DNA of 20,278 nt from positions 1-20,278 of IMG/VR virus record IMGVR_UViG_3300028025_000122; one strand, written 5' to 3'. The notes under the pieces were generated by a model, which was not told the origin of the DNA, searched no databases, and was given only the letters and a program-made list of their open reading frames with translations. Both the position numbers and the translations under genes were made by a program. Of this stretch, positions 6,922-20,278 are shown one piece after another; position 1 is the first letter of the stretch; each line of letters starts with the position of its first letter. Origin of the DNA: a virus.

Positions 6922-6929
6922 TATTTATG
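6922..6929 (-). promoter_or_regulatory. Probable late promoter CATAAATA ahead of the 933-residue fibre gene
   Basis: The minus strand reads CATAAATA, one base off the T4 late promoter TATAAATA. It is followed by an A-rich spacer, AGAGGAAT and the ATG at 6901. The TAA stop codon of the preceding 1057-residue gene is inside the motif. The ahead-of-start position and the similar module before the 258-residue gene support it. A one-base mismatch in AT-rich DNA keeps confidence moderate. Confidence 0.5.
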
Positions 6930-9900
6930 CTTGAGCTTCTGACCAGAATAAGTTCAAGTTGACATTGGCTGTTGGTGCATCTAGAACAGTAATAGTTCCT
7001 GCCATCGCTGAGTGATATTGACAGACATAGTACAGAGTATCTGGGGCACTTAATGGAACTGTAAAGGTTATTGTTCCGTTTTCCTGTCCAGGATTTGTAA
7101 CACCAGTTGTATATAATGCAGCTTGACTATATGCACCACTTTGCGTCTGAATATGGAATGGATGTCCACTAGCATTAACTTCAAAAGTATATGTTTGTCC
7201 ACGATACAATGTTAGTGGTCTATCTAACGCTTCATTGATAGTATATGAAGAACTACCAGAAGCTGTAATCTTGAATGTAGTAACTCCTGTAGGAATATTT
7301 CTAACAACAATAGCTAGTACATCGGGACCATCTGGGAAGTTTGAATATCCACCAATCGCAGAGTTAGATAATTCTTTCAAGTCTGATAAGTCAATCTCAG
7401 AGAATCCATCTGGCTGACCTAGTGTAGAGAAAATCTGTTCACCTGGATTTGCTGCTACCGTAGTAGTTGTTGAAATCTGAGCGAATGAAGGTTGAGAACC
7501 TAATGCCTGAGTATTGACTGATGTCCAATCTAATGCAGCTGCATCAATATTACTTGGATTTAAAATTCCATAAACTTGAACAGATTTGTTAGATTGAACT
7601 TGTAATTTTTGTAGTAACAGCTGCGATCTATTAACCAAATCTCTATCACCAAGATTACCAGAAATAGAATTAGATACAGAAGGTGCTAATCTCAATAAGA
7701 ATGCTGTTTGTGCTTTACCAGTTGAGATCGCTTCACTCAAAGCAGCATAGTTGAAGTAGTATCCACGATCAATGTCAAAACCACCATCCATGATGTAAGA
7801 AGAACCCCAGTGATTTAGAGCTGGAGTTGCAGTACAACCAATAAAAGTTACAGACTGGAAGAAGTTACCTACAGCGTGTGAGGCAGCAGCACCGCCAGTG
7901 AATGAACGATTTACACCACCAGCAAATAATTGGAACGATGCACCACGAGTACATCCTGTTAAAGTGTTTCCAGTTTTACCTGTATAAGTGATAACTTCAT
8001 TTTCTATTAAAACAACACCACTAGAGGGAAAACGACTAGCATCTACTAATGAAATACTGGTAACTGAACTATTTACAGAAGAAGCAAGACGACCAATAAT
8101 AGATTCATTAATCGCTTGGTAACGAACAGTGGTGTTACCAGTACGCATGTATGCTTCATCATTTAAGTTATTCTGTTTCATACGATGTGCAACAATCATA
8201 TTGCCATCTGGTCCACGACACATAAAGTCTACGAAACCAGCACCATACCAAGAGAAAGAAATTGCCATCATCTGCATCTTGTTCAAATTAATTTTATAAC
8301 CTGATACTCCAGTGCCATCTAATTTGTCAATGTTAAATTCAGATTGAGGAACACGAGTGTCAATAATCGCAGATATTTTAATGTTGGTAGAAGTATTAAC
8401 TCCACGATATTCTGGGTTAACTGTCATAGTATTATCGTCAGTAATAGAACCAACTTTATATGTCATCCCACGAATAACGACATTAGAACCCACTTGCAAC
8501 TGTTGGGTGAATCTACATGAATTGCCAGTAACTGATTGAGATCCAGGAGTTACTGTAACAAATCCAGATAACTGAAATGTAGACGATCTTTTAACAACAG
8601 CTAATTCTTGACCATCATATTCCCAGAACAATCCGTTTTGATCATCAAATGCTCCAACACGAACTGAAGCACCAGCCCAATTCTTTAAAGTAACACGAGG
8701 AATATTTGTAATAACTGCTGATGTTGTTCCCAAAACATTACCAGCAATGACAGTGAAAGTATTTTCATTTACGATGGTGTTGACACCATATGTGCCATTA
8801 TATCCAGAGGTAACTACTCCACTAATTAAAACCTGAGCACCAACTTGTAGTCCATGATCAACTTCTGTTGTAACAGTAATAGTAGATCCAATTGAGGTAG
8901 CATTCGCAGAAATTTGGTCTAGGTTGATAACTGGATTCAACGCAACACCTGAACTCCAAAGAACACCCTTACCTGATTGGTAACGCATGTATTTTTTAGT
9001 TTGACGAGCAATAGAAGCTCCATGAGATGGCAAGAAGTTACTCAAAGTAACACCACCATCAAATGGTCTATGAATAACGGATGCGTCAGAACGAGTATAC
9101 ATCGAACTGCTAATTAAATTACTCTCAAGAACTGCACCACCAACACGAGCAGTAAAAGTAAAAGTAGTAGAAGTTGGAACTGTTTCTGCAAAGAAATTTC
9201 CAGACAACAGTGCGTGGTTTACTCCACCAGATGTACAAATACCAACTAATGGGGATCCTGGAACTAGTCCGTGGTTAGCAGAACAAGTTACTGTGATAAC
9301 GGATGGGTTGGCTTCATCGGAAACCATAGAAGTAATTGGTAATGAACTGCCTGTGTAAAAGCCACCACGACGAGCATATGTAGCACCAGTCTTTAGTGAA
9401 TTTGGATAAACACCAACAACACCCTTTGCGAAATATGTAAATGTCTGAGAATTCGGTACAGAAGCTACAATAAACGATCCTTCAGCACGAGCATATGCTG
9501 GAGTATTACCTAAACCATGTAAGATAACAGCATCATTTACTGCAAGACCATGAGGAACAGTTGTAGTTACTGTAATGACTGAAGGAGATTGTCCACCAGT
9601 AATAACATCAGCCAAGAAAATATCTAGTCCAGGCTTTTCATAAATTCCAGGAACATTTCGAATGTCAGCATAGTTCTGCCACTTAGTAGGCTGAAGACCA
9701 TATTCAAAGTCAGCATCAATTAATGACTGAGGGTTTGATACACGCATTCTTTCAATGGCATCAACACCCATCGCATAAGGTCTAATGATGTTACCCACAT
9801 TCGCTGGGGCATCTACATAGATTGAAATTTTATCTGTAGACAACATCAACGATGTGTCTTTATTAAATGTTACTGTAGTAACACCAGCTTGTTCTGTAAA

Positions 9901-10098
9901 GAATGTAGTATTATCATCTGGGTTATAAGAAACTGAACCAGATCTAGTTGAATCGCCAAGAGCATAAATGTTATCTTGTTTTGTTTTATTAGCAATAATC
10001 AATAGACGAGTTTCGTCACATTTTCCAGGAAACTTTAATGTACCATTGTTGGCAGTTCCTGGAGTAAAAACATATTTTTCAATCAGTTGGCGAGCCAT
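6925..10098 (-). CDS. Large virion structural protein with C-terminal cupredoxin-like domain
   Basis: A 1057-residue protein of the kind found among baseplate/tail structural proteins of marine T4-like phages; the block AIERMRVSNPQSLIDADFEY (residues 114-133) followed by GLQPTKW is highly typical of that group. At least three related beta modules follow: SPSVITVTTTVPHGL (171-185), NPSVITVTCSANHGL (264-278) and STITVTTEVDHGL (405-417), each ending in a T-F-T strand. Residues 672-720 form another module (SRFPSSGVVLIENEVITYTG). Residues about 958-1040 are cupredoxin-like: TLYRGQTYTFEV, GHPFHIQ (His979, His982), then YYVCQYHSAMAGTITV with Cys1026, His1029 and Met1032, the C-x2-H-x2-M spacing of amicyanin. 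Copper binding is inferred. SD AAGGA precedes the ATG; the stop lies inside a probable late promoter. The exact place in the virion cannot be told. Confidence 0.8.
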   Translation of the reverse strand: MARQLIEKYVFTPGTANNGTLKFPGKCDETRLLIIANKTKQDNIYALGDSTRSGSVSYNPDDNTTFFTEQAGVTTVTFNKDTSLMLSTDKISIYVDAPANVGNIIRPYAMGVDAIERMRVSNPQSLIDADFEYGLQPTKWQNYADIRNVPGIYEKPGLDIFLADVITGGQSPSVITVTTTVPHGLAVNDAVILHGLGNTPAYARAEGSFIVASVPNSQTFTYFAKGVVGVYPNSLKTGATYARRGGFYTGSSLPITSMVSDEANPSVITVTCSANHGLVPGSPLVGICTSGGVNHALLSGNFFAETVPTSTTFTFTARVGGAVLESNLISSSMYTRSDASVIHRPFDGGVTLSNFLPSHGASIARQTKKYMRYQSGKGVLWSSGVALNPVINLDQISANATSIGSTITVTTEVDHGLQVGAQVLISGVVTSGYNGTYGVNTIVNENTFTVIAGNVLGTTSAVITNIPRVTLKNWAGASVRVGAFDDQNGLFWEYDGQELAVVKRSSTFQLSGFVTVTPGSQSVTGNSCRFTQQLQVGSNVVIRGMTYKVGSITDDNTMTVNPEYRGVNTSTNIKISAIIDTRVPQSEFNIDKLDGTGVSGYKINLNKMQMMAISFSWYGAGFVDFMCRGPDGNMIVAHRMKQNNLNDEAYMRTGNTTVRYQAINESIIGRLASSVNSSVTSISLVDASRFPSSGVVLIENEVITYTGKTGNTLTGCTRGASFQLFAGGVNRSFTGGAAASHAVGNFFQSVTFIGCTATPALNHWGSSYIMDGGFDIDRGYYFNYAALSEAISTGKAQTAFLLRLAPSVSNSISGNLGDRDLVNRSQLLLQKLQVQSNKSVQVYGILNPSNIDAAALDWTSVNTQALGSQPSFAQISTTTTVAANPGEQIFSTLGQPDGFSEIDLSDLKELSNSAIGGYSNFPDGPDVLAIVVRNIPTGVTTFKITASGSSSYTINEALDRPLTLYRGQTYTFEVNASGHPFHIQTQSGAYSQAALYTTGVTNPGQENGTITFTVPLSAPDTLYYVCQYHSAMAGTITVLDAPTANVNLNLFWSEAQA

Positions 10099-14269: not shown

Positions 14270-15955
14270 TTACTTCTTAACTACTACTAAGAAGAATCCA
14301 TTCCACCATTCGTCTTTAGACTCGACTGAATTAATCCAGATCTTCTCGAATAATACATTCAGCTTGGCTTTGGCTAAACCAGCTTTTGCCCCAGAAACTA
14401 CACCTTCCCAGTTTGCATCATCAAATACGATTACAGCCTCTTCTGCTAGAGTTTCTGCAAAGTATTCTACAGCCTTTCTGGTGTTTATTTCATCATGTGG
14501 ACCATCATAGAAAAAGAAATCAATATCCTTTATGTTGGTTAGGTCGGTCGCATACATATCCGTATCATATACCTTACAGGCAGTAGAACCTTTATATTTG
14601 CGGACATTTTCTATAAATGTTTCTTTATTTGTCTTAGGAAGTTCATCACCAACTTGAGGTTGTATATCCTCTTTCCAATGATCAACAAAGTGAGCTTCTT
14701 TCAGAGTATTACAAGAAAGTGCTGCAACCCCAGTCGATCCCAAGAAACTTCCCACTTCAAGATATTTATTTGAATTAGAGGCAATCGATTTAATCAGCTT
14801 CTGCATTCTCGAAGAAGTTAGTCCAGGAATTCCAAAGTCTTCAATCGTAGGATTATCGTGATATGCTAAAACTTCTACCATTTTAGTTACTTTGGCAGAT
14901 AACTTTTGTCCACCTTTGGACTCGTAAACCTTATCGCAGAAGTTACAATCCCAGCAGTCGAACTTACAGTTCTTGATAATCTTGCGCCATGCATTGATTG
15001 GTTTTTCTACTAGATTATTATCCTCTAGATACTCTTCAAATCCAGCAAATAGAATCTCTTCATTATTTGCATACTTAGAAATGATGTCCATAGATTCGTA
15101 CAATCTAGCTGCAGATTCTCTGCCATGCATTTTGATTGTATCGATACCTAGATCTAGTAGTTCATCCCAGTCTTCTTTCCATGGAGTGAAGTTGGCAGTC
15201 TTCAACATGATCGCTGAATCTTCATAGTCCCATTTCTGGCAAGAAACTCTAGCAATCGGAGAATTAAAATACTGTGGATCTTCTTTAGTTCGATTACAGT
15301 TATACTCGTAGTGCTCAGTCATAACAGGACATCCACCAGCACAACCTTCGTTAGCTAAAAGAGAAATCTTAACTGGAAGACCAATATCTTCGCAATGCTT
15401 TTTAGCCTTTATAATCTTCAAAAGACTATCTCTGTCTCTCATCAAATCACGATCTAAATTGATGTAGTGAAACCCAGCTTTAGCTAATCCTACAACTTCG
15501 TTAGCCTGTGTGACTTCTCGAAGAATTGTATTCTTGATAAAGAGTTCTGGGAATTCAGCTTGAATCTTTCCTGTCGCCACCCAATGAGTGTGAGGAATCG
15601 TAGCTGAACGAACACCTGCCTCGTAAAGAGGTCGAAAGTTCTTAATGAACTTGTCTAGGTTTCGTTGAGTTGGGGGAACTGTGACATTGTTAAATGTCGC
15701 TGATACTGGTATCTTAGTTAATCGCTGAATGTGTAATGCAGCATCAATTGAATACTTAGCATCAGCGTCATGTATAACAAACACATCACCCATAGCATCC
15801 TGATCAAAGGGAGCTATGCGTGAAGTGAAGTAAATGTCGGAGATGTAGTCTTTGTAGCGAACAACAAACGAAATAAATTCGTTAAATTGTTTCTCCGTCA
15901 ACTTTGGGTTTAGCGGTAAGCTGAAGACTTTCGAGGGATTTCGCATTGTATACAT
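14270..15955 (-). CDS. Fusion of a cysteine-rich U32-like domain and a class I SAM methyltransferase
   Basis: A 561-residue cytosolic enzyme candidate. Residues about 8-345 look like a TIM-barrel of the peptidase-U32 type. LLANEGCAGGCPVMTEHYEY (199-218) fits the N-x-G-C...C block of that family, and WDELLDLGIDTIKMHGRES (263-281) fits its lGID-x-FKI-x-GR block. Cysteines 205, 209, 220, 239, 330, 334, 337 and 340 suggest an iron-sulfur site. Residues about 395-561 are a methyltransferase: KYLEVGSFLGSTG (397-409, SAM loop), HFVDHW (422-427), DFFFYDGPHD (479-488) and VIVFDDANW (508-516). U32 proteins include RNA hydroxylases (TrhP, RlhA) and ubiquinone hydroxylases; the substrate here is unknown. 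The start overlaps the upstream gene by 74 bases without a good SD; Met4 (15946) is an alternative. It sits oddly among virion genes. Confidence 0.68.
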   Translation of the reverse strand: MYTMRNPSKVFSLPLNPKLTEKQFNEFISFVVRYKDYISDIYFTSRIAPFDQDAMGDVFVIHDADAKYSIDAALHIQRLTKIPVSATFNNVTVPPTQRNLDKFIKNFRPLYEAGVRSATIPHTHWVATGKIQAEFPELFIKNTILREVTQANEVVGLAKAGFHYINLDRDLMRDRDSLLKIIKAKKHCEDIGLPVKISLLANEGCAGGCPVMTEHYEYNCNRTKEDPQYFNSPIARVSCQKWDYEDSAIMLKTANFTPWKEDWDELLDLGIDTIKMHGRESAARLYESMDIISKYANNEEILFAGFEEYLEDNNLVEKPINAWRKIIKNCKFDCWDCNFCDKVYESKGGQKLSAKVTKMVEVLAYHDNPTIEDFGIPGLTSSRMQKLIKSIASNSNKYLEVGSFLGSTGVAALSCNTLKEAHFVDHWKEDIQPQVGDELPKTNKETFIENVRKYKGSTACKVYDTDMYATDLTNIKDIDFFFYDGPHDEINTRKAVEYFAETLAEEAVIVFDDANWEGVVSGAKAGLAKAKLNVLFEKIWINSVESKDEWWNGFFLVVVKK

Positions 15956-16718
15956 TATCTAATAGTTGAGGAATTGTAGTATTATTTGCTTCCAAATATT
16001 GATCCACTTGCTCTTGCACACCTAAAGAAACTTTATGCAAACCAGCATTAATCAAACCAGAATATTGAACAGCTAACTGTAAAGTATTTAGTTGATCTTC
16101 GGAAGGCATCATAGCGATGGAGTCCATATTACCAGAACCAATTCGACCAAAAGCAAGAATATCAAGAGCAGCTTGTTTACCCATACGAGCAACCCAGTAC
16201 TTCTTCTCTTCTTCTTCGTTTAGTTCAAGATATGGTGCTAACTCTTCTTCAGTTTTAGCATATTTCTTTACAACATCAATAAATGCTTTCATCTCGCTTT
16301 CAGACTGAGCAAACTTTCTTTGATAGATTGTAATATCATAATCTAATTTTTCCAAGTCGATCTGCAGCAACTCTTTCTCTAACTCATCTGGAGTATTTTC
16401 GATCGTTCTTGCCATCATTTTGCGATGAATTTGGCATTTACGAAGACTATTACGAATCTCAGTATAAGCATGGTAGCGAGTTTCAATTTCTAGCAATGCT
16501 TGACGAACCATTTTATATGGAGTCAACTGCGAGTTTGTAACAAATTGCTGACATTGGTATTCAGTCATACCCATGTTAGCGTGAATCGATGATTTGATAA
16601 TATCTAAATCATAATCTTTAAAAGAATATCTGTCTTTAAAATCTTGAGCGACATTAATCTGTAGCACATCACTTGACACAATGTTATTTGTATCAATCAA
16701 ATCAGAAGTTGTATTCAT
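15882..16718 (-). CDS. Helical protein of unknown function in the fibre gene cluster
   Basis: A 278-residue, mostly alpha-helical protein that I do not assign to a family. Residues about 70-165 are charged and probably coiled coil (IETRYHAYTEIRNSLRK, then ELEKELLQIDLEKLDYD). Residues 173-210 hold a more conserved-looking segment, YWVARMGKQAALDILAFGRI followed by GSGNMDSIAMMP. There is no signal peptide, membrane segment or catalytic motif. It starts 17 bases inside the end of the 258-residue gene behind a strong SD (GAGGTGAAG), so these two are translationally coupled. Its last 74 bases overlap the 561-residue gene. Place and coupling suggest a tail-assembly or scaffold-like role, but this is inference from context only. 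Confidence 0.6.
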   Translation of the reverse strand: MNTTSDLIDTNNIVSSDVLQINVAQDFKDRYSFKDYDLDIIKSSIHANMGMTEYQCQQFVTNSQLTPYKMVRQALLEIETRYHAYTEIRNSLRKCQIHRKMMARTIENTPDELEKELLQIDLEKLDYDITIYQRKFAQSESEMKAFIDVVKKYAKTEEELAPYLELNEEEEKKYWVARMGKQAALDILAFGRIGSGNMDSIAMMPSEDQLNTLQLAVQYSGLINAGLHKVSLGVQEQVDQYLEANNTTIPQLLDNVYNAKSLESLQLTAKPKVDGETI

Positions 16719-17478
16719 GTATCTTCACCTCAGTAGTTCTAGTTGCGTCTGTTTCAGAGACAGTCCAACCAGGAATTTGCACTGCCTGCGTATCAGGCAT
16801 AAAAACACCCAAATATTTTTCATATAAAATATTCAGATCCCATACAGTTGTTGGTGCTTTAAACTCTTTGATAAGTTTTTTATACACCACCAACATATCA
16901 GAAAGACTGTCAGCATATTGTTCTGCTTTAGTTAGGATTTTATTCGCTAACTCAGTCTTATCAATTTCTTGTTCTTGCGCAAGATAATCTAAAAATGGAG
17001 TATGACTGTTCACTTGATCAGCCAACCATTCTCTTGCTTCATGTTTCTGAATTTCCCAAGATTCTTTTTCAACCAAAGAAACACCCATAAACTCTTTAAA
17101 ACGACGATCGAATTCTTGATTAATAATTTCGAGCGCAACAGCTTTCATAAAAGCAACAATGTAACTAATTAGTTCTGGAGTAATATCAACTGGAATTTTA
17201 GCAGGTTGAGTCCAAATACCTTTTGATTTTTCTGTAATCTTACCAACTGTTCTAATTTCCGAGAAGAACAAACTACCCCAATGTGCTTGCTCATATGGCA
17301 ATTCTACAATACGACAATCCCAGCTTGGTCTTAGTGTATTGAATAATGTGTCTGACATTTCAAAACAAGAAACATCATGAATCTGGAATTTTTCCGAAGC
17401 CTCTAGGTTTGGATCACCACCACCCTGTGCTACAATATTTTGTTCCAAATAACCTGTTCTAATTAAAAAGTATTTCAT
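16702..17478 (-). CDS. Possible tail-fibre assembly chaperone
   Basis: A 258-residue soluble protein directly after the propeller-like fibre genes. Residues 139-206 contain SWEIQKHEAREWLADQ, HTPFLDYLAQEQEI and LANKILTKAEQYADSL. This follows the pattern W-x2-Q-x2-EA-x2-WLAD...TPFLD-x-LA...LA-x-KI-x2-KA that I associate with the helical C-terminal region of phage tail assembly proteins. The N-terminal 100 residues are beta-rich (MKYFLIRTG start; PSWDCRIVELPYEQAHWGSL) and not recognised. Assembly chaperones are often encoded just after the fibre they fold, which fits here. A CATAAATA late promoter and AGAGGA SD lie immediately upstream, so it probably starts a transcription unit with the 278-residue gene. 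Alternative: a minor virion component. Confidence 0.5.
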   Translation of the reverse strand: MKYFLIRTGYLEQNIVAQGGGDPNLEASEKFQIHDVSCFEMSDTLFNTLRPSWDCRIVELPYEQAHWGSLFFSEIRTVGKITEKSKGIWTQPAKIPVDITPELISYIVAFMKAVALEIINQEFDRRFKEFMGVSLVEKESWEIQKHEAREWLADQVNSHTPFLDYLAQEQEIDKTELANKILTKAEQYADSLSDMLVVYKKLIKEFKAPTTVWDLNILYEKYLGVFMPDTQAVQIPGWTVSETDATRTTEVKIHEYNF

Positions 17479-17498: not shown

Positions 17499-17506
17499 TA
17501 TTTATG
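17499..17506 (-). promoter_or_regulatory. Probable late promoter CATAAATA ahead of the 258-residue gene
   Basis: The minus strand reads CATAAATA, one base from the T4 late consensus, then AGAGGA and the ATG at 17478. As at 6922-6929, the preceding gene's TAA stop lies inside the motif. The two sites share spacing and a similar SD, which argues for a real module, though AT-richness makes chance occurrence possible. Confidence 0.5.
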
Positions 17507-18704
17507 ACTGTCTTTGTGCAGTGACTGATGATGAAGCAGACCAACAAACACCTGAAGATGTTCCAAAGTGACCCTTTGGTCTAGTGGCAGAACCCATTGA
17601 ATACATTGCATCGTTTGAATACAAGATTTTAATTGTATGATTAGTTTGTTGACCATCGTGATGTCCAACCACATAACCCCATTCTTGACCCATTTGATTA
17701 TTTTCTTCTGAGTATGCTCTTACTCGATTGTAAGCTGATCCGATATCTGTTGCAGTTGATTCATTAAATTTAATTTGTTGTGCGCTAGTAGAACTAGTCC
17801 CAGTTCCACCATAGTGGAATCCTTTTTTGGTACACAGAAACTTACCCCATCCATCAGGTGAAGCAGCAGTAGTCCACGCTGTAAAGGTGTCATTAGAGTA
17901 TGTCATATATCTTTTTGTTCCACCAAAAGACCAATATGCTCTAGTTTCGCCACTACAACCAGCAGAAGCTCCATTGGCAGGGGAAGCTGTAGTTGAGTAC
18001 ATAATTTCAGTACCAAAGTGCATTTTATCTGTAGTGTTAGTGGCACCTGCAGCCAAACTACCTCCAGCTACATACCCAACTTGACCCATTTGATTTGTTG
18101 CTGCAGCACAGAAGTTTCTTCTGATTGATCCATCCCAACCACCAATAACTCCAACTGCTGCATCGCCAGCACCCTGAGAAATTGCAGAACCAGATTCGTT
18201 TTCACCTGAACCAAATCCAAATGTAGAGTAAGATTCACGAACATCTCTATCTCGAGATCTTCCCATTCCAGTATGTAAATTTACACTGACTGTTCGCTTT
18301 GATGTTTCACCTGGTGGACTGCTACTGCCATCTTCAGATCCGTCTGAGCCACCTTGTGCTCCAGTAACATATCCGTTATAATCTGAAAAATATCCTTCTT
18401 GATACGCACAAGCATACTGCAGTTGTTCACCACAGTAAACTGTAATGTCTGTTGAGTGCCAAGTTTTGTTGACTGATCTCCAAGGATTACCACCCTTGTA
18501 TCCACCAGCTTGATAACCATGAGTTATGATAGTTCGAGTTTCGAAAGTGTTACCAATATTACCAGCAACTGTTTCTCCAGGATATGACCAGAAACCAAGT
18601 GTTCCATTTGTCATTAACTGTGCGCCACGAGTAGTAGCTGATGGTAACGGAAGAACTGGGTTAGTTCCACCAATCCAATTTGTAGATCCAATTTTAAATG
18701 CCAT
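17502..18704 (-). CDS. Tail or receptor-binding protein with propeller-like repeats, paralogue 1
   Basis: A 400-residue virion-type protein, one of three adjacent relatives. The N-terminal half has RGAQLMTNGTLGFWSYPG, TFETRTIITHGYQAGGYKGG, NPWRSVNKTWHSTDIT and YFSDYNGYVTGAQGG. The C-terminal half has NQMGQVGYVAGG, FGTEIMYSTT, NQMGQEWGYVVGHHDGQQTN and RPKGHFGTSSG. The recurring GY-x2-GG and D-x-T-x-n-Y strands suggest a Kelch-like beta-propeller, but I cannot confirm the fold. Residues about 117-185 differ strongly from the paralogue and carry insertions. No signal peptide. The ATG lies 2 bases after the preceding stop, with no strong SD, so translation is likely coupled. Role as host-recognition tip protein is inferred from architecture and neighbours. 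Confidence 0.62.
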   Translation of the reverse strand: MAFKIGSTNWIGGTNPVLPLPSATTRGAQLMTNGTLGFWSYPGETVAGNIGNTFETRTIITHGYQAGGYKGGNPWRSVNKTWHSTDITVYCGEQLQYACAYQEGYFSDYNGYVTGAQGGSDGSEDGSSSPPGETSKRTVSVNLHTGMGRSRDRDVRESYSTFGFGSGENESGSAISQGAGDAAVGVIGGWDGSIRRNFCAAATNQMGQVGYVAGGSLAAGATNTTDKMHFGTEIMYSTTASPANGASAGCSGETRAYWSFGGTKRYMTYSNDTFTAWTTAASPDGWGKFLCTKKGFHYGGTGTSSTSAQQIKFNESTATDIGSAYNRVRAYSEENNQMGQEWGYVVGHHDGQQTNHTIKILYSNDAMYSMGSATRPKGHFGTSSGVCWSASSSVTAQRQS

Positions 18705-18706
18705 AG

Positions 18707-19957
18707 TTATACCGCTCTCGAAGAAGTTACAGAAGCAGCTGCTGAAACACTACCAGCTGAAGACATACCGTAGTGACCTTTTGGTCTACCTGCAGCACCC
18801 AATAAAGTTACTGTATCAGTAGAATATGTTACATACCAAGATTTGTTATTTTGTTGTCCGTCATACTCACCAAGACAATAACCTTTATCTTGACCCATGT
18901 GATGATTTTCTTCACCAGCATTAAATCCACGACTTAGAGTGGTTGATAAATCTGTTCTTGTTGATTCACTAAATTTAGTAAATGATGAAGATGAAGTGTT
19001 ACTACCTTGTCCAATATAGTGCCAACCTTTTTTAGTTGACAGCCACTTACCATGACCATCAGTGCTGTGAGTTCCAGAGTATGTACTCCATGCTTGGTTC
19101 GAATATGTTAAATATTTTTTAGTGCCAGCGACATTAAAAAATCCATCGACTTGTCCGCAAGCACCAGACGCATAGTTTCCACTCATACCAGAATCAGTAG
19201 TAGTATACATTATTTCAGTACCAAAGTGTAATCTATTAGTTACAGAAGATCCACCGCCAGTTACATATCCTTCTTGTCCAGTTTGATTTGTTGCTGCACC
19301 GCAACCATCTCGTTGCACATTCATAGCCCAACCACCAACACCAGAAGCTATATAAATGTCTGTGCTGGCTGTATTTGCTGCTAAAGTGCCATAAGTGATA
19401 CTTTGTCTTGCTGGATCATCTTGACCAGCAGAGCCAGCACCTGCAGGCGCATTTGCGTCATTGCCACCATATCCGTAAGGCATTGAAGCCGAACCAAACA
19501 AGCCATGAGTTCCACCATCACCATTATTTAAATTTGAAAATCTATTTCTTGCTTGACCAGTGTGTAAGTTAATTGATGCTGTTTGAGCATATGATCCGTA
19601 TCCACCAACACCAAATACATATCCATTGTAATCGCTGAACACAGCATCACAGTATGCCATTGGTGCTGTTAATTGTTCTCCACAACTGAAAGTTATATCA
19701 GTGGCATGCCAACATTTGTGAACAGTTCTCCATGGATTAGAATTTTTATATCCACCACAAACAAATCCATGAGTTAGAATAGTTCTAGTTTCGAAAGTTC
19801 CACCAATGGTTTCGTTGGGATTTCCAGGATAAGCAAAGTATGCATTGGTTCCATTGTTATACATTGAAGTACCTCTGTCATATCCATTCGACAGAGGAAT
19901 TGGAAATATTGAACCAGAAGTGTCTAAGACTTTACTTGAGCCAAGATAAAATGCCAT
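18707..19957 (-). CDS. Tail or receptor-binding protein with propeller-like repeats, paralogue 2
   Basis: A 416-residue paralogue of the next gene downstream. Conserved blocks are TFETRTILTHGFVCGGYKNS, NPWRTVHKCWHATDIT, CGEQL, FSDYNGYVFG, HFGTEIMYTTT, GTKKYLTYSN, KWLSTKKGWHYIGQGS, EENHHMGQDKGYCLGEYDGQ and RPKGHYGMSS. Residues about 118-207 are glycine- and asparagine-rich (GYGGNDANAPAGAGSAG) and not alignable by eye with paralogue 1, which marks a variable surface. More cysteines than paralogue 1 (for example 67, 82, 92, 103). Starts 1 base after the stop of paralogue 3 and ends 2 bases before paralogue 1. Probably a fibre-tip or baseplate-decorating protein. Confidence 0.62.
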   Translation of the reverse strand: MAFYLGSSKVLDTSGSIFPIPLSNGYDRGTSMYNNGTNAYFAYPGNPNETIGGTFETRTILTHGFVCGGYKNSNPWRTVHKCWHATDITFSCGEQLTAPMAYCDAVFSDYNGYVFGVGGYGSYAQTASINLHTGQARNRFSNLNNGDGGTHGLFGSASMPYGYGGNDANAPAGAGSAGQDDPARQSITYGTLAANTASTDIYIASGVGGWAMNVQRDGCGAATNQTGQEGYVTGGGSSVTNRLHFGTEIMYTTTDSGMSGNYASGACGQVDGFFNVAGTKKYLTYSNQAWSTYSGTHSTDGHGKWLSTKKGWHYIGQGSNTSSSSFTKFSESTRTDLSTTLSRGFNAGEENHHMGQDKGYCLGEYDGQQNNKSWYVTYSTDTVTLLGAAGRPKGHYGMSSAGSVSAAASVTSSRAV

Positions 19958-19958
19958 T

Positions 19959-20278
19959 TTACGATCCTGCGTAGTATGTTGCTGTTATTGATGCAGCTGC
20001 TGAAAACGCTGCAGCAGAAGATTGTCCAGTGTGACCCTTTGGTCTTGATGCACTTCCAAGAACAAGCTGAGCATCAGTCGAGTAATCATATTTGATTGTG
20101 TGATTATTTTGTTGGTCATCGTAGTTACCCAAACAATAACCCCAGTTCTGTCCCATCTGGAAATTCTCTTCTCCCATAGCACGAACTTTATTTGTCATTG
20201 ATGCAGATGTTTCAGTAGAGATTGTAAATTTATATTGACCTAATGTTACATTGGCACCAGTTCCACCATATAGATGTC
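19959..20278 (-). CDS. Tail or receptor-binding protein with propeller-like repeats, paralogue 3 (N-terminus outside window)
   Basis: Only the last 105 residues are present; the frame is open to the right edge, so the gene begins outside. The visible part starts HLYGGTGANVTLGQYKFTIS, continues AMGEENFQMGQNWGYCLGNY, DDQQNNHTIKYDYSTDAQLV and RPKGHTGQSSAAAFSAA. This matches the ends of paralogues 1 and 2 (for example FHYGGTGTSSTSAQQIKF and NQMGQEWGYVVGHHDGQQ). An internal ATG at 20198 is not the start, because homology runs upstream of it. It is the first of the tandem set in transcription order, and further copies may lie beyond the window. Confidence 0.7.
   Translation of the reverse strand, partial: HLYGGTGANVTLGQYKFTISTETSASMTNKVRAMGEENFQMGQNWGYCLGNYDDQQNNHTIKYDYSTDAQLVLGSASRPKGHTGQSSAAAFSAAASITATYYAGS

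Follow-up and report, generated by a model that had tools for sequence, protein, structure and literature searches.

The window analysed here, a stretch of 20,278 nucleotides from an IMG/VR virus record, is a fragment of a T4-like myovirus, whose gp15 matches Pelagibacter phage and cyanophage sequences at similar identity. Its minus strand encodes a protein in which an N-terminal barrel is fused to a C-terminal methyltransferase, next to a small set of other phage genes. The features discussed below are as follows, with residue numbers referring to the fusion protein.

14270–15955, minus strand: the fusion gene, 561 amino acids (T4-GC 354 of the cyanomyovirus gene clusters, PHROG 1458), from the open reading frame listing and homologue searches.
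14906–15955, minus strand: divergent U32-superfamily TIM barrel with a cysteine-rich tail, residues 1–350, from the model, the 5d88 match and intermediate sequences.
15230–15349, minus strand: putative Fe-S loop between barrel strands 7 and 8, residues 203–242 (E203, C205, C209, E214, H215, C239, W242), invariant in phage and Chloroflexota proteins.
14936–14968, minus strand: C-x3-C-x2-C-x2-C tail, a putative second metal or Fe-S site, residues 330–340, invariant in 40 phage homologues and present in cellular relatives.
14273–14836, minus strand: class I O-methyltransferase domain (Methyltransf_24), residues 374–561 (PF13578, E 2.8e-8; TomG and TrmR folds).
14732–14764, minus strand: SAM-binding motif I, residues 398–408 (YLEVGSFLGST), with E400, G402 and G406 invariant in 40 homologues.
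14408–14512, minus strand: putative divalent-metal and acceptor site, residues 482–516 (FYDGPHDE...FDDANW), from the TrmR alignment; invariant.
15882–16718, minus strand: GC353 (PHROG 1409), predicted soluble and helix-rich-looking, a strict co-occurring partner (123 records for each of the two genes; 67 of 67 loci).
16702–17478, minus strand: GC352 (PHROG 1604), a less constant neighbour, detected in 21 of 67 loci.
17502–20198, minus strand: three tandem GC351 paralogues ('sericin 1 precursor-like'; the first is PHROG 1417), with GC351-type genes in 67 of 67 loci.

The fusion gene corresponds exactly, in position, strand and length, to the open reading frame that a sequence-only reading of this DNA had picked out, and the motifs quoted there are present: NEGC at residues 202–205 (with AGGCP after it) and GIDTIKMHGR at about 270–279 in the N-terminal half, and EVGSFLGST (400–408), YDGPH (483–487) and FDDANW (511–516) in the methyltransferase. 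The upstream gene overlaps the start by 74 nucleotides and homologues begin at around residues 4–9, so the true start may lie a few codons further in.

It had been suggested to search phage databases for the same fusion, and it is found in abundance. Relatives of the protein are encoded on 269 IMG/VR stretches, and the 80 that were kept, on which the locus-level counts below are based, carry the full-length fusion at 53–99% identity. A further 123 phage records match, all of them cyanophages and 121 across at least 80% of the length; set against some 438 cyanophage-named records with a T4 gp15 homologue, this is about 28% of T4-like cyanophages. Among the matches listed, the annotation is either hypothetical or spilled over from a neighbouring gene, and PHROG 1458 is labelled 'unknown function'. 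A chance reading frame is ruled out by this conservation (269 stretches, and catalytic-type residues invariant across 40 aligned homologues). In a scan of genome collections the only matches were two phage-like contigs that had been binned into MAGs; the phylum of the second MAG yielded no convincing cellular relatives, nor did a plasmid search yield any, and a literature search found no papers linking U32 proteins with cyanophages. The fusion is common among marine cyanophages and overlooked, and its architecture is new for what would be a known chemistry.

AlphaFold2, supplied with the family alignment, yields a TIM barrel for the N-terminal domain (pLDDT 85.5 for the whole protein; 81.7 and pTM 0.82 for the domain alone), with eight countable strands and the cysteine-rich loop between strands 7 and 8. 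When the domain by itself is compared in VIA-align, the U32 protein MK0906 ranks first (5d88; Z 15.9, 223 aligned, rmsd 3.2), 2.4 Z ahead of the runner-up, MTHFR (Z 13.5), while the top Foldseek rows obtained with the whole model mix pyruvate kinases and methyltransferases. Direct Pfam, NCBIfam and PDB sequence searches with the N domain found nothing, and PF01136 (Peptidase_U32) gave no direct match in a Pfam scan of the fusion protein, nor in the record of the window. A profile search recovered Chloroflexota relatives of the barrel (E 1e-28 to 1e-32), the closest of which likewise gave no direct match when scanned with PF01136. More distant relatives were found in the order of one of these Chloroflexota relatives, and are read as Dehalococcoidales from neighbouring reductive dehalogenase genes. 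Five of these intermediates score above the PF01136 cut-off (3e-7 to 1e-15), and the four that were scanned against the PHROGs (L150, L151, L154 and L163) all match phrog_1458 (2e-6 to 2e-12). Since the intermediates match both families, the phage domain belongs to the U32 superfamily. Profile-profile comparison with U32 gives an E-value of 8e-5, where the reversed control gives 0.75 (both single-pair values), and aligns the phage TFNN, KNT and LDRDL with the U32 TVN, HLSVQ/HaStQ and LSREL. Profile A4 gave no match at E 10 in four U32-bearing genomes, and its direct reach to canonical U32s is therefore poor.

Fold, intermediate sequences and profile alignment therefore agree with the proposal that the N-terminal half is U32-like, and the structural check proposed for it places a U32 protein first. 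A generic TIM barrel was considered and ruled out, as U32 leads with the domain alone and the intermediate sequences settle the matter. The suggestion that this half is of the TrhP type, however, does not hold, as there is no NCBIfam TrhP match and no Pfam U32 C-terminal domain, and the cysteine spacing is replaced. The phage N domain is a divergent member of the U32 superfamily, and not TrhP.

A second phage U32-like family, PHROG 5757, is annotated 'peptidase', and is probably not a peptidase. Its proteins are phage-encoded and related to the same intermediates as phrog_1458, but its 387-position profile leaves no space for a fused methyltransferase. A BFVD search returned phage homologues and an Escherichia phage 'peptidase'.

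Seven cysteines (C205, C209, C239, C330, C334, C337 and C340) are invariant in the 40 phage homologues; the three closest Chloroflexota proteins share all of them, and also keep E203, E214, H215, W242, K275, G278 and R279. The cysteines would make up one three-cysteine site and one four-cysteine site that could hold Fe-S clusters; the first lies in the loop that is the lowest-confidence region of the model (pLDDT about 60–76). The phage pattern, C-x3-C-x29-C followed by the C-x3-C-x2-C-x2-C tail, differs from the C-x6-C-x15-C-x3-C of TrhP and RlhA, which is absent here; conversely TrhP, RlhA, UbiU and UbiV lack the phage signature, their cysteines being spaced otherwise. Of the cysteine-rich Fe-S domain originally described, the conserved cysteines suited to Fe-S stand. 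Of the five intermediates that match PF01136, four have NxxC-x3-CP...H with the C-x3-C-x2-C-x2-C tail. The Dehalococcoidales proteins L150, L151, L154 and L156 and the closer Chloroflexota proteins L087, L088 and L089 have the phage-type NEGC/EDC-x3-CP...H...C and the same terminal motif, but are unfused, and some adjoin reductive dehalogenase genes. At L151 966–3141 a U32-like gene with the seven cysteines immediately precedes one for DAHP synthase, a position that fits the dependence of studied U32 enzymes on prephenate or shikimate.

Since the cysteine spacing is unlike that of studied U32 enzymes, hydroxylation may not be conserved. One could go further and regard the barrel as a U32 relative in which hydroxylation has been lost, now an Fe-S, redox, targeting or scaffold domain, with methyl transfer as the only catalysis. 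The absence of canonical U32 cysteine spacing points that way, as does the lack of a direct Pfam U32 match in both the phage protein and its closest Chloroflexota relatives. Such a loss is nevertheless unlikely, because the barrel is better conserved than the methyltransferase (mean column identity 70% against 58%) and its invariant charged and cysteine residues are common to cellular proteins that have no fused methyltransferase.

In the C-terminal half, PF13578 (Methyltransf_24) is the only Pfam methyltransferase match, covering residues 399–513 with 35 bits against a cut-off of 26.3; the TrmR-type O-methyltransferase family is not matched. The fold neighbours are catechol-type, antibiotic and macrolide-sugar O-methyltransferases, TomG reaching Z 18.4. 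The comparison with TrmR proposed earlier gives a clear fold match (Z 16.3–16.8) and a weak one in sequence (E 0.011), which is still the best PDB sequence match of the C-domain profile. In that weak alignment D484, D512 and D513 fall on the D-D-N residues of TrmR, its metal site in the COMT fold. The methyltransferase half seen in the sequence-only reading is therefore a class I O-methyltransferase with a COMT-like fold, of the Methyltransf_24 rather than the TrmR family. A COMT-type metal site suits an acceptor hydroxyl that adjoins another oxygen, and such an acceptor would result from a ring hydroxylase working next to an oxo group or a hydroxyl.

Divergence in one half tracks divergence in the other (Mantel r 0.85, 0 of 2000 permutations), and the fusion, as the sequence-only reading had described it, has been kept as one unit. 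In P-SSM3 (L164 4001–5720) the barrel half is intact and the methyltransferase half is frame-broken and unannotated, through mutation or sequencing error; with the C half interrupted by the change of frame, this copy does not speak for a natural standalone N domain. Similar pairs occur in cells. In B. subtilis, trmR stands in one operon (yrrM/N/O) with trhP1/trhP2, and the Bacillus route had been cited correctly, TrmR turning ho5U into mo5U (PMC6599085). Among the three closest cellular relatives, L088 and L089 have a PF00891 O-methyltransferase gene, of a different family from the phage Methyltransf_24, directly upstream on the same strand. The pairing of a U32 protein with a methyltransferase thus recurs in three settings, as operon, neighbour and fusion, and the co-divergence of the halves together with these two upstream genes makes a hydroxylate-then-methylate chemistry coherent.

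The TrhP (or TrhP1-P2) and TrmR (yrrM) system resembles the phage fusion in combining a U32-type barrel with a COMT-fold SAM O-methyltransferase, and in the alignment of the presumed TrmR metal-site residues with the phage C domain. It differs in that the phage halves form one protein with another cysteine arrangement, no Pfam U32 C-terminal domain and a Methyltransf_24 methyltransferase. UbiU-UbiV, the [4Fe-4S] ring hydroxylases of anaerobic ubiquinone synthesis, share with the proposal for the phage protein a U32 barrel, Fe-S-type cysteines and a hydroxylate/methylate pathway, but consist of two subunits with no fused methyltransferase, the UbiU cysteines being at 169, 176, 193 and 232.

At two Chloroflexota (Dehalogenimonas-like) loci, L091 7380–11178 and L092 9448–13261, a U32-like gene, an O-methyltransferase gene and a reductive dehalogenase gene adjoin, the last checked with TIGR02486 in L091. 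It is possible that the U32-like gene and the O-methyltransferase are tied to the reductive dehalogenase machinery there.

The virion-gene setting pointed out from the sequence is borne out, as homologues of neck/connector and tail-sheath-stabiliser proteins, and long fibre-like proteins, flank the fusion. GC353 and GC354 are each present in 123 phage records with identical organism and host breakdown, a comparison of the two sets that rests on counts, breakdowns and the accessions listed, and not on matching record to record. GC353 and GC351-type genes are also kept nearby in every one of the 67 IMG/VR loci that extend far enough upstream. GC351-352-353-354 are contiguous in P-SSM4, P-HM2 and Syn19; S-ShM2 has both GC354 and GC353, about 6 kb apart. 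The last GC351 paralogue of the window is short, and lies at the contig end. The GC351 paralogues have strongly conserved aromatic and GEEN..MGQ..QNN blocks, and match no Pfam family.

These linkages bear on the substrate. The sequence-only reading had raised hydroxylation and O-methylation of a tRNA pyrimidine, with TrhP and TrmR in one protein retuning decoding during infection; an rRNA pyrimidine would be a variant of this. TrhP and RlhA are indeed U32 proteins, and the TrmR match and the shared B. subtilis operon described above favour such a substrate. Against this, both halves fall outside the TrhP and TrmR families, the fold scores of TomG and other small-molecule methyltransferases equal or exceed that of TrmR, and a Pfam scan of the fusion protein finds no RNA-binding domain. 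The carriers P-SSM4 and P-HM2 have no tRNA genes (PMC3037559, Table 1), which leaves host tRNAs as possible targets. Net charge was considered as a clue to RNA binding and is uninformative, the fusion and TrhP both being negative. As for the wobble route, nothing ties the fusion to tRNA, while co-occurrence ties it to GC353 and GC351 in the virion block, and I consider an RNA substrate quite unlikely.

A small-molecule or glycan substrate would be a quinone-like, aromatic or sugar metabolite, hydroxylated and methylated in the manner of UbiU/V plus UbiG. UbiU and UbiV are U32 ring hydroxylases (PMC10470549), the closest methyltransferase folds act on catechols, macrolide sugars and antibiotics, and genes of a tailoring type occur near the fusion, with a Trp halogenase in 25 of the 80 viral loci and a 2OG-Fe(II) oxygenase in up to 32. 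The constant partners, however, are GC353 and GC351, and no biosynthetic pathway gene is a constant partner, so that metabolite tailoring also seems unlikely. At one locus (L028 9623–12335), just downstream of the fusion, the Trp halogenase (PF04820, E 2.3e-90) has a 2OG-FeII_Oxy_5 gene on either side.

I therefore favour, tentatively, a bifunctional Fe-S hydroxylase/O-methyltransferase that acts on, or with, the virion-linked GC351-GC353 module. This builds on what is directly observed, namely both folds and homologies, the conserved cysteines and active-site acids, the stable fusion and the strict GC353 linkage; Fe-S binding, hydroxylation, the order of the steps and the substrate are what the proposal would add. 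The U32-type barrel would bind one or two Fe-S clusters, through C205/C209/C239 and the C330–C340 tail, and would hydroxylate an aromatic or similarly activated carbon, probably with an oxygen donor other than O2. The Mg-type O-methyltransferase would then cap the new hydroxyl with a methyl group from SAM. The substrate would more likely be part of the GC351-GC353 module, or be handled together with it, than be tRNA. The linkage to GC353 and GC351 could also come from shared inheritance of the late block, and the role of GC353 could be that of a subunit, not of a substrate.

A more specific form of this proposal, in which an O2-independent U32-type hydroxylase fused to an O-methyltransferase modifies a protein of the virion module or a partner, GC353 or GC351, in two steps, is doubtful. 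Studied U32 proteins are needed to hydroxylate rRNA, tRNA or quinone rings (PMC6599085, PMC10470549). The specific form would, if true, add a maturation step of the cyanophage particle, and the first U32 enzyme acting on a protein, as I know of no other. If one substrate is both hydroxylated and methylated, the fusion would unite in a single protein what other pathways divide between a U32 enzyme and a methyltransferase apart from it, and what uncharacterised U32 subfamilies modify would become directly testable in cultured phage. The four 'unknown' cyanophage clusters T4-GC 351–354 acquire a testable shared role.

Elsewhere in the window, a virion-like protein of 1057 residues (6925–10098) ends in HPFH...YYVCQYHSAMAGTI, which on reading the sequence resembles a plastocyanin-type copper site.
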